A DNA stretch of 21,622 bases from Pseudomonadota bacterium (lineage in GTDB: Bacteria > BMS3Abin14). The notes under the pieces are model-generated. The model ran no database searches, had not been told where the DNA came from, and saw nothing but the letters and a program-made list of their open reading frames with translations. Within the stretch, counting starts at the first letter, position 1; each line of letters opens with the position of its first letter. Below are positions 18,577 to 21,622 of this stretch, one piece after another. The DNA lies in contig JAFGWO010000185.1 in the NCBI GenBank assembly GCA_016937135.1, positions 1-21,622 on the forward strand, read 5' to 3'. The translations under genes and the position numbers were made by a program.

Positions 18577-19458
18577 TTGGGAATCCAAACCCTTCAAAGG
18601 ATATGCGGGGGCAGGGGACTGGTGATCGGCCGGATCAATCCCCTGGACGATCTGCTTCTTCCTCCTTCGGGGTCGCCGGAGGACCTGCTCCTTTTTAAAA
18701 ATCTCCTGGATCACTATGCGGCGCGCCTTATCCTGAAAGAAATCCTCAAATCGGAATCCCTGGCTCAATGGAATAAAAGCAGGAAATCCGTGGAACGTTT
18801 TTGTGAACCGCAGGCCCTGGACAGTTTTCTGGAGGCTTTCGCCGGACTCGGGGTCATCCTTCAGGGAGGAAAAAGCCAGCATCCTTCTCCCTGGACGCCG
18901 GTTAAAAGTTTCGGACCGACTTACGAGTGGTATGTCTCCCGGGTTTTTTCCGACGACCTGGGGTGTCCCTCGGGCTGGGGGGTTCGCTTTGCCGGGATGC
19001 CGGCGGGAGGGGACCACGATGTCATCGCGTCCATCTCAGGGCAGTTCCTTTACCTCGAGGCCAAAACCGCCCCTCCCAAACACATTGAAAAGCCCGAAAC
19101 CTCCGCGTTCATAAGGAGGCTGTATGACATGACCCCGGATATCGCAATTTTTCATAACGATACCCATCTGAGGATGAAGGACAAGATCATACCGATGCTG
19201 GAAGAGGCAATAGGCCAGTTACGAGTCCAGCGTTGGAAGTCCAGAGGCAAAGACCTCCCTTTAAAGGTCCACCCTGCGGATTTAAACGGAGGGAATCACC
19301 GTTTTCAGCGTCTGGAAAGGGAGATCTTTCACCTGGATTCCTGTGTCTATGTGGTAAACAGCAAACCGGACCTTAAAAGGAACCTTCTGGTGATATTAAG
19401 ACATCATTTCCACGAAGGGAGTGCCGTGGTAAAAGCCCTTGAAGGGAAAGGGGAATAG
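18577..19458 (+). CDS. Uncharacterised protein with PD-(D/E)XK nuclease signature
   Basis: A protein of about 293 residues that I do not recognise as a named family. Residues 144-163 read GGDHDVIASISGQFLYLEAK. Asp148 at the end of a glycine-rich turn, a 12-residue strand-turn-strand, then Glu161-x-Lys163 is the layout of restriction-endonuclease-like PD-(D/E)XK sites, and Glu117 (TYEWYV) could be the helix acid. The N-terminal ~110 residues are helical, and the C-terminal ~90 contain DSCVYVVNSKPDL-type strand patterns. The start is uncertain: TTG 18577 has no good ribosome site, while GTG 18622 has a G-rich stretch just upstream. It lies alone between amrS and ade with its own possible promoter, so a link to defence or DNA repair is not shown by context. 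Confidence 0.6.
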   Translation: MGIQTLQRICGGRGLVIGRINPLDDLLLPPSGSPEDLLLFKNLLDHYAARLILKEILKSESLAQWNKSRKSVERFCEPQALDSFLEAFAGLGVILQGGKSQHPSPWTPVKSFGPTYEWYVSRVFSDDLGCPSGWGVRFAGMPAGGDHDVIASISGQFLYLEAKTAPPKHIEKPETSAFIRRLYDMTPDIAIFHNDTHLRMKDKIIPMLEEAIGQLRVQRWKSRGKDLPLKVHPADLNGGNHRFQRLEREIFHLDSCVYVVNSKPDLKRNLLVILRHHFHEGSAVVKALEGKGE

Positions 19459-19530: not shown

Positions 19531-21285
19531 ATGGAGCCTGAAGTCTTGAAGCTGCCGCACTTGACGGAACTGATTCTAGCCGCCCGCGGGGATTCCCCGT
19601 GTGATCTGGTCCTGAAAAACTGCAGGATTATCAATACGTTCACTCTCGAGATCCTCAATGGCGAGGTCGGGATCAAAAACGGGTTCATCGCCGGGGCAGG
19701 GGAGGTGGAATACGACGGGATCGATATCGTTGACCTTGACGGGGCCTATCTCGCACCGGGCTTCATCGAATCCCATTTCCACGTGGAGAGTTCCCTTCGC
19801 CGGCCCTCGGAGCTGGCCAGGCTTGTGGTGCCCAGGGGGACGACCTGCATCGTCGCGGATCCCCACGAGATAGCCAACGTCGCCGGCGTTCCCGGGATTG
19901 AGTATTTTTTAAAAGACAGCGAGGGAATCCCGCTGGATCTTTTCCTGATGGCCCCTTCATGCGTCCCTGCGACGGAGTTCGAGACGTCGGGGGCGCGGCT
20001 GGACGCCGGGGATATCGAGAGGCTCTACAGATACCCGCGGGTGATCGGTTTAGGCGAGGTGATGAATTTTCCGGGTGTCATCAACGGGGCCCCGGACATG
20101 ATGGAAAAGATCCTGGCAAGCCGGGGCAGGCCCATTGACGGCCACGCGCCCATGCTCTCGGGAAAGGAGCTTTGCGCCTACATCGCTGCCGGACCCCGGA
20201 GCGACCACGAATGCTCGGACGAGAGGGAAGCCCTGGAAAAAGTGCGTCTTGGTATGCACATCATGATCCGTGAGGGCGCCGAACCAGGCAACCTGGGGAA
20301 ACTGGCGGCCATCGTCAATGAGAAAAACCTCGACCGTTTCATGCTTTGCACCGATGACAAGCCACCCTATAAACTCTTTGAGGAAGGCCACGTAGACTAC
20401 CTCCTCAGGCAGGCGGTCCTTTCCGGCCTGGATCCCGTCATGGCCATCCGAATGGTGACGTTAAACCCCGCGCGGTATTTCGGGTTTGCCCGACGGGGGG
20501 CCGTGGCCCCCGGCTATATGGCCGACCTCGTCGTAACAGAGGACCTGGAATCCTTCAGGGCCGCCCGGGTATACAAATCCGGCCGCCTGGCAGCAGAAAA
20601 CGGCTCATCGATGTTAAAAAGCCCATCTGCCCCCCCGGATCCGGCAATCCTTAACACCATAAAGATCCAATCCCTTGAACAGGAAGACCTGACGCTGAGA
20701 TTCGGATCGGCCAAACCCGCCGCACGGGTCATGGAGCTTGTCAGGGGGACCATCCTAACCAGGCACCGGGTGGAAAAGGTCCCCGTGGACGATGCCGGAT
20801 CCTTCGTATTTGACCCGGAAACGGACCTTGCCCCTGTTTTCGTCCTGGAAAGGCATAGGGGGACCGGCAATGTCGGCAAGGGTCTCGTCCGGGGATTCGG
20901 CCTCAAACGGGGCGCCTTGGCCTCGAGCCTTGCCCACGATTCCCATAACATCATCTGCGTCGCCGCCGACAGCCAAAGCGCTTACACTGCAGTCAGGACC
21001 CTCGTGGACCACGGGGGCGGGTTCTGCGCGGCCGTGGGGGATCGCTGCACCGGGCTGGTGGACCTGGGAATTGCCGGCCTTATCCATGAGGGGACCTACG
21101 AGAGCATCCTTGAAGCTTTTAAAGACCTGGAGAAGGGAATCACGGAGACAGGATGCGCCCTGCCGCACCCGTTTTTTTACCTGAGCTTTCTATCCCTGCC
21201 GGTCATCCCCGAGCTGAAGATCACGGACAGGGGCCTCTTCGACGTCGCCGCGTTCTCGCAAGTAAACCTTGAGGTAAAAACGTAG
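19531..21285 (+). CDS. ade: Adenine deaminase
   Basis: A 584-residue amidohydrolase that converts adenine to hypoxanthine and ammonia in purine salvage. The N-terminus (LVLKNCRIINTFTLEILNGEVGIKNGFIAGAG) and metal motif APGFIESHFHVESS are characteristic; most adenine deaminases have D or E-S-H-x-H-I/V-E-S-S here. ADPHEIANV, GLGEVMNFPGVI, DGHAPMLSGKELCAYIAAGPRSDHE, LCTDDKPP and the NPARYFGF block are all intact. The C-terminal domain (~430-584) is full length (HDSHNIICVA, LPHPFFYLSFLSLPVIPELKITD...), as in the Ade family. ATG 19531 has AGGAGAG just upstream. It is the last gene before the non-coding repeat region at the right edge. Confidence 0.95.
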   Translation: MEPEVLKLPHLTELILAARGDSPCDLVLKNCRIINTFTLEILNGEVGIKNGFIAGAGEVEYDGIDIVDLDGAYLAPGFIESHFHVESSLRRPSELARLVVPRGTTCIVADPHEIANVAGVPGIEYFLKDSEGIPLDLFLMAPSCVPATEFETSGARLDAGDIERLYRYPRVIGLGEVMNFPGVINGAPDMMEKILASRGRPIDGHAPMLSGKELCAYIAAGPRSDHECSDEREALEKVRLGMHIMIREGAEPGNLGKLAAIVNEKNLDRFMLCTDDKPPYKLFEEGHVDYLLRQAVLSGLDPVMAIRMVTLNPARYFGFARRGAVAPGYMADLVVTEDLESFRAARVYKSGRLAAENGSSMLKSPSAPPDPAILNTIKIQSLEQEDLTLRFGSAKPAARVMELVRGTILTRHRVEKVPVDDAGSFVFDPETDLAPVFVLERHRGTGNVGKGLVRGFGLKRGALASSLAHDSHNIICVAADSQSAYTAVRTLVDHGGGFCAAVGDRCTGLVDLGIAGLIHEGTYESILEAFKDLEKGITETGCALPHPFFYLSFLSLPVIPELKITDRGLFDVAAFSQVNLEVKT

Positions 21286-21373: not shown

Positions 21374-21401
21374 ACTTTACATAATATACCTTATGCGTAA
21401 T
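21374..21401 (-). other. dif: Candidate chromosome-dimer resolution site dif (XerC/XerD site)
   Basis: Read on the - strand, the site is ATTACGCATAA (XerC arm), GGTATA (6-bp centre), TTATGTAAAGT (XerD arm). Against my recollection of E. coli dif, 22 of 28 positions agree, including CGCATAA and TTATGT and the exact 11-6-11 spacing. XerCD recombine here to resolve chromosome dimers at the terminus. It lies outside genes, ~90 bases after ade. The XerD arm faces the ade side. The call rests on pattern alone. Confidence 0.7.
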
Positions 21402-21450
21402 TATGGGTTGCCTGTTCCAGGGGCATTCTCCCATAATCACGCATAAGGTA
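21387..21450 (+). repeat. 21-bp-arm inverted repeat overlapping the dif site
   Basis: The left arm (21387-21407) and right arm (21430-21450) are reverse complements over 21 positions with a single mismatch, around a 22-base loop. The left arm contains the XerC arm and part of the centre of the dif candidate. The right arm repeats them in opposite orientation (CACGCATAAGGTA). In single strands this would fold into a long hairpin. Confidence 0.85.
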
Positions 21451-21470
21451 ATCCCCACTCCCGGGGTCAT
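21397..21470 (+). repeat. 74-bp direct repeat, copy 1
   Basis: This copy is identical over 74 bases to 21525-21598. It begins inside the XerC arm of the dif candidate and contains the 8-bp stem ATTATGGG/CCCATAAT, an XerC-like half-site ATCACGCATAA (21437-21447), and a small CCCC/GGGG stem near its end. Confidence 0.95.
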
Positions 21471-21524
21471 AAGGCTTCAGAAGGCCCCAAGGCCCATTGG
21501 CAGGCTGTCGCCAGAACGGCTTCA

Positions 21525-21598
21525 GTAATTATGGGTTGCCTGTTCCAGGGGCATTCTCCCATAATCACGCATAAGGTAATCCCCACTCCCGGGGTCAT
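21525..21598 (+). repeat. 74-bp direct repeat, copy 2
   Basis: Second identical copy, offset 128 bases from the first. It lacks the left XerC arm that precedes copy 1 but keeps the internal half-site ATCACGCATAA (21565-21575). The 54-base spacer between the copies starts and ends with GGCTTCAG (21473-21480, 21518-21525). The sequence up to the window end (21622) shows nothing further that I recognise. Confidence 0.95.
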
Positions 21599-21622
21599 TG
21601 GGCCTCATACGGGACCGAGCAC

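Follow-up and report, generated by a model that had tools for sequence, protein, structure and literature searches.

The window analysed here, 21,622 nucleotides of DNA from a Pseudomonadota bacterium, is the whole of contig C30 of genome G000 (1.71 Mb in 292 contigs, 81% complete). Ten genes of the window were scanned, with three more, and were assigned to housekeeping, regulatory or transport families (Pfam); the neighbouring gene at 18577–19458 was without a Pfam match. An adenine deaminase gene (19531–21285, + strand; PF13382, PF01979) is the conserved neighbour on the XerD side of dif, the same as in relatives. The dif site, where chromosome copies are separated, was read from the letters on the − strand at 21374–21401 as ATTACGCATAA GGTATA TTATGTAAAGT, with the XerC arm at 21391–21401, the centre at 21385–21390 and the XerD arm at 21374–21384; its core was located by pattern search at 21376–21396. 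The same site lies between the same genes in relatives. Within the final 250 bases of the window lie dif and, on the + strand, the first part of a tandem array, of which only the first two units are visible because the window ends where the contig ends.

The initial annotation had described two identical 74-bp repeats, the first beginning inside the XerC arm of dif, an inverted repeat with 21-nt arms overlapping dif, and in each repeat a kept XerC arm and GGTA of the centre, lacking a XerD arm. All of these were found again in the letters. The repeats (21397–21470 and 21525–21598) are 100% identical and each reads ATCACGCATAA GGTA AT CCCCACTCCCG on the + strand; repeat-finding returned 95-nt copies at 92% identity with a spacing of 128. 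Unit 1 (21397–21524, + strand, 128 bp) has spacer type A and shares its first 74 bp with unit 2 (21525–21622, + strand, spacer type B), which is cut at the contig end and was completed from contig C1. The 21-nt inverted arms, at 21387–21407 within dif and unit 1 and at 21430–21450 in unit 1 (both given on the + strand), are 95% complementary and join dif to repeat 1. The inverted XerC arm of unit 1 (21436–21446) with GGTA of the centre (21436–21450, + strand) matched dif at 14 of 15 bases (0/500 shuffles), and the equivalent in unit 2 (arm 21564–21574, with GGTA 21564–21578, + strand) is conserved in units 1–4. The inverted 21-mer matched dif at 21/21 and both copies at 20/21; its best score anywhere else in the window was 14/21, and it was therefore not ascribed to chance. 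The best XerD arm in the unit reached 5/11, which is the level of shuffles. No gene lies in the array units, and no transposase-size open reading frame was found in them.

The stretch from dif to repeat 1 had a predicted DNA fold of −20.4 kcal/mol (z −6.3, 0/200 shuffles as good). Copy 2 with its own flanks folded no better than shuffles (z −0.5, 55/200 as good), so a strong hairpin is expected only where dif gives the second arm. The XerC cut lies 6 bases past the unit boundary, and 24 bases of the identical block follow it.

Contig C1 of the same genome, reverse-complemented, begins with the 87 bases that end the window (exact 87-bp overlap). Joining the two placed unit starts at 21397, 21525, 21653, 21785 and 21914 (join coordinates), giving four full units of 128, 128, 132 and 129 bp and a partial fifth that extends into the end of a flippase gene; the further units looked for to the right were thus present. 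The number of units is a minimum, since the contigs end inside the array. Spacer types alternate A, B, A, B, and similarity was 89% between units 1 and 3, 81% between 2 and 4 and 85% between 1 and 2, the last pair with the identical 74-bp start. Beyond the array lie a flippase-like gene (PF03706), DUF362 and UbiA. Of the ten neighbour proteins of the array with a Pfam match, seven were in housekeeping-type families. No phage or conjugation gene was found among the neighbours searched with Pfam, and no second dif-like site with a GCATAAG core in dif orientation was present in the 10.9 kb of C1, a search that a mutated junction would escape.

The repeats had originally been taken for the possible edge of a Xer-exploiting integrative element, and a CTXphi-like layout adjoining dif is what the edge of a large integrated element would give. 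To the right, however, a few gene-free units are followed by syntenic ordinary chromosomal genes, an outcome that the initial annotation had itself named as contrary, and in the relatives G009 and G010 these genes occur without an array. Given the overlap with C1, the shared gene order and these array-free relatives, the edge of a large element was considered very improbable and close to refuted.

The family comprised 12 genomes (the relatives that carry a name being MAGs recorded as unclassified 'bacterium'). Sites were found by pattern in eight; no dif with up to 3 mismatches was found in G002, G005, G006 and G011. The order flippase–dif–adenine deaminase is common to the relatives: both genes flank dif in G008, G009 and G010 and are on two pieces in G001, while the flippase-like gene alone was seen in G003, the adenine deaminase alone in G004, and neither in the stretch taken from G007. 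Flippase and dif are about 100 bases apart in G009 and about 220 in G010. In G008 they are separated by 1.7 kb with two reading frames, which were taken by eye, without a family search, for dihydrofolate-reductase-like and hydrolase-like proteins; a faint XerC-arm relic near the G008 flippase was sought by eye and none is claimed. G009 has an unrelated GC-rich hairpin between flippase and dif. Such a hairpin at the same place, and the convergence of the adenine deaminase and flippase genes on the array, would suit a bidirectional terminator or a REP-like intergenic palindrome between converging genes. This explanation is quite unlikely: dif itself supplies sequence for the strong hairpin, and no dispersed copies occur in the genome, whereas REP-like repeats are usually dispersed.

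The 160 bases flanking each of the nine dif copies of the eight genomes on the XerC side were searched for an inverted XerC arm with 4 centre bases. Scores were 14/15 in G000, 13/15 at both copies in G001 and 15/15 in G008 (0/500 shuffles each), the inverted partner starting 49, 64 and 60 bases from the arm, respectively. The other five genomes gave 7–10/15, scores reached by 62–500 of the 500 shuffles, which is chance. As controls, inverted XerD copies on the XerD side scored 6–10/15 in all nine and direct copies 7–11/15. A XerC partner is therefore present beside dif in three of the eight genomes with a found dif, in three genera and in unrelated sequence. The partner includes 3–4 centre bases in all three and matches the local dif (GG centre and AC in G000; GA and TTC in G001 and G008). 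Folds at dif gave z values of −6.3 (G000), −4.3 (G001) and −5.2 (G008), with an 8-base unpaired run in the hairpins of G001 and G008. In 400 kb of G008 the 15-mer was exact only at dif and its partner (next best 12/15). A XerD arm in the partners was not recoverable in seven sequences (26–100% of shuffles as good). The similar layout in two relatives, in unrelated sequence, hints that the arrays may reflect a recurring side-activity of Xer and not the edge of a virus.

Tandem units are present in G000 and G001. Those of G001 (3 full and 1 cut in one piece, 1 full and 1 cut in the other) have two spacer types, are unrelated in sequence to G000, and by eye their spacers diverge right after GAT, 3 bases past the XerC cut. 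G001 (CP070719) has its dif in two copies (L022, L023) turned towards each other, separated by 79 kb and each adjoining an N gap of 100 bases. The ends of the two pieces overlap, over a stretch that begins at the flippase and stops 57 bases beyond dif; the copies are best explained as one locus, with overlapping, wrongly turned contigs and two array variants in the assembly. In G001 and G008 the bases adjoining the XerC arm on its outer side look by eye like those of partner-less G004, as though the host arm were still in place. GC skew over 400 kb of G008 showed no clear switch at dif, in an assembly whose order is made unreliable by N gaps. Runs of 7-base tandem repeats were noted near dif in G008 and G001 (TRF; L024, L041, L050, L027) and by eye in G007. 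At the level of the protein family, XerC and XerD taken together, PF00589 gave two strong matches each in G000, G001 and G008, a third, weaker one on another contig of G000 (81% complete), and at least one match in 12/12 genomes. Zot was found in 0/12 family genomes.

Within G000 units 1–4 the two longest conserved runs, CACGCATAAGGT (12) and GTAATTATGG (10), are the XerC block and its hairpin partner. All 22 columns of these blocks are conserved against 58/105 elsewhere (Fisher p 1e-5) and, a smaller difference, 23/34 in the remaining hairpin columns (p 0.002), for blocks picked after viewing the alignment and for four units of one array that are not independent. Over the hairpin part, units 1–4 match unit 1 at 56, 50, 49 and 40 of 56 bases, so divergence grows away from dif. 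Conserved XerC blocks and a common layout in three genera would also be expected of an accessory part of dif under selection, with extra XerC-binding half-sites or a cruciform that tunes XerC loading or regulates dif. That role is improbable, because the partner is missing at five of the eight family dif sites, including that of G003, which belongs to the same genus as G008, and because no such part is described in the available portions of the literature on Xer sites.

Unit 1 had no match in 50,697 phage or 72,556 plasmid records, and a phage or plasmid origin by similarity was rejected on that ground. The G000 array matched its own genome only, with 243 bases searched against 61 genomes and 126 bases against 12. 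The unit does not recur elsewhere in its own genome and so is linked to dif, as had been proposed. The G001 array matched only G001 among 12 genomes, along with two short dispersed pieces of 51–56 bases. A gapped pattern was found in 3/12 family genomes and 6/374 others; with 4/386 for the backwards control, the six outside-family matches are at chance level and there is no excess outside the family. A scan of 84,980 species yielded 40 stretches, many of which may be chance by our own estimate (for each dif, 31 flanking positions in which a 7-mer can occur), so the bare number was left unused. Six of the 40 (L031, L041, L043, L050, L051, L063) share at least 3 contiguous centre bases and pair at most 5/11 XerD bases, and three of them come once more from G001 and G008. 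Four scans for hairpins in viral contigs returned 7, 3, 1 and 0 stretches. The ten from the first two looked unrelated to the array by eye, and the single one from the third, L120, which has tail-sheath and tail-tube families, was set aside as matching Pseudomonas loci beside dif. Three sub-threshold matches to RNA families were taken as chance. No repeat array beside dif was described among the literature matches listed, in the parts available and with subscription journals thinly covered.

Several other layouts flanking dif were recorded. Two complete, opposite dif-like sites with XerC arms facing, 38–62 bases apart with differing loops, were seen in Magnetococcales MAGs (L032, L037, L046, L047, L055, L059), a Desulfarculales MAG (L042) and a Piscirickettsiaceae/Methylophagaceae MAG (L034); their centres agree in L046, L047, L055 and L042 and differ in L032, L037, L059 and L034. 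At two Pseudomonas loci (L045, 7554–7604; L066, 795–845) and in viral contig L120 (3507–3590), dif and an inverted partner have TGT of the centre in common. In a Pseudomonadaceae MAG (L031, 2762–2840) a 13-bp inverted XerC arm lies beside dif between EAL and CHAD genes, and no element genes were seen there.

The explanation we favour, with a probability of roughly 40%, is that the array is a tandemly amplified, gene-free, XerC-only hairpin site that XerC strand exchange at dif left behind as a scar or by-product. As the sequence shows, the array sits without genes between the flippase-like gene and the chromosomal dif, and each unit has an inverted XerC half-site of dif (arm and first centre bases) and the outer half of its hairpin partner. 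The nearest unit and dif can fold, as a single strand or a cruciform, into a XerC-only site like attP of the CTXphi type. The inverted half-site would have been placed by XerC exchange at dif, through integration of a now lost single-strand-type element or, alternatively, an abortive exchange of XerC with a folded strand, and would subsequently have been multiplied by tandem duplication beside dif. This is suggested by the inverted XerC arm in three of eight genomes with lower controls (6–11/15), by its occurrence in three genera with partners that track the local dif and strong folds in all three, by XerC blocks that are the best conserved part and a divergence that rises away from dif, by the absence of the unit elsewhere in the genome, by the need of CTXphi for XerC-proximal centre pairing, and by G001 spacers that part close to the XerC cut. 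Points against it are the G000 unit boundary off the XerC cut, the irrecoverable XerD arm, the post hoc choice of blocks, the poor folding of units after the first, the G004-like outer flank in G001 and G008, the absence of phage or conjugation genes among the neighbours searched and the lack of the far junction expected from CTXphi-type integration. It is because a XerC arm, 3–4 centre bases and a fold occur, but no phage genome or far junction, that a scar or by-product is favoured.

The partner could also have arisen without Xer catalysis, by a template switch at the replication terminus that copied the XerC half in inverted orientation, followed by multiplication through slippage or unequal crossing-over. 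A partner that tracks the local dif is equally expected from such a host fold-back, as are the direct tandem arrays with a two-spacer period and the duplication ends within the XerC arm, both seen in G000 and G001, and by eye the sequence flanking the dif arm resembles that of the host. The inverted stretch nevertheless ends after 3–4 centre bases in all three genomes, the 8-base unpaired run in G001 and G008 would have been copied by a simple fold-back, and conservation in the XerC blocks exceeds that in the remainder of the unit. With the G000 unit ending off the XerC cut and the G001 spacers parting 3 bases past it, fold-back was ranked as possible, behind strand exchange. If a host dif has repeatedly gained inverted XerC half-sites and built gene-free arrays from them, it would reveal how XerC treats folded strands at dif in the absence of a phage; the array would be a plausible intermediate state, and such loci would be small natural substrates for testing XerC.

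Known systems were compared with the array. IS1202-family elements target dif and insert a few bases from the XerC arm, according to the available text of PMC10132070; they are 1.5 kb long with a transposase and target duplications, whereas the array units of about 130 bp have no gene, and instead of a transposase, terminal inverted repeats and target duplication, units of 128–132 bp between identical arms were found. Acinetobacter dif (pdif) modules resemble the array in having inverted Xer sites close together. They contain genes and complete XerC/XerD sites and are mostly on plasmids, as far as described in the accessible parts of PMC12907356, PMC13141974 and PMC6449649; the locus has a single complete dif and gene-free units, with no gene between two complete inverted sites. 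Close inverted Xer sites of pdif type were observed at L048, L054, L064, L068 and L070.

Integrons (attI/attC) likewise line up imperfect hairpins next to the site of a tyrosine recombinase, the repeats being shared and the spacers different. According to the available text of PMC4792948, XerC/XerD and the integron integrases are closely related, and no reaction other than CTXphi integration resembles the capture of cassettes. The array could by analogy be integron-like and run by Xer, dif being the entry site and XerC-arm hairpins the attC-like sites, with short non-coding units added by host XerC alone, newest first and repeatedly, in one small bacterial group. This is unlikely. The array differs from integrons as portrayed there in having no cassette genes, two spacer types only and a XerC-type arm. 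No integron integrase was found among the window and C1 genes searched with Pfam in this 81% complete genome, whose third, weaker PF00589 match lies on another contig.

CTXphi-type elements have a similar anatomy. In CTXphi, two opposite dif-like sites on the single-stranded DNA pair with each other, and a strand is exchanged with dif by XerC; this reaction needs the centre bases near the XerC cut to be paired (PMC3089051, available text). The array differs in its loop (about 22–60 nt versus about 90), in its tandem gene-free units and in its bacterial group; no phage genome with replication and Zot genes was found, the array having no genes and ordinary genes lying beyond, nor was a second, non-functional far junction found in the 10.9 kb of C1. 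The likeness noted in the initial annotation nevertheless holds, and it recurs in two relatives. As in the attP1/attP2 sites of CTXphi-type IMEX, to the extent covered by PMC3089051 and PMC5357621, inverted dif-like half-sites with XerC arms pair on one strand (here 14/15, z −6.3), the XerC arm and XerC-side centre (GGTA) are kept while the XerD side has diverged, and one working dif stays beside the site.
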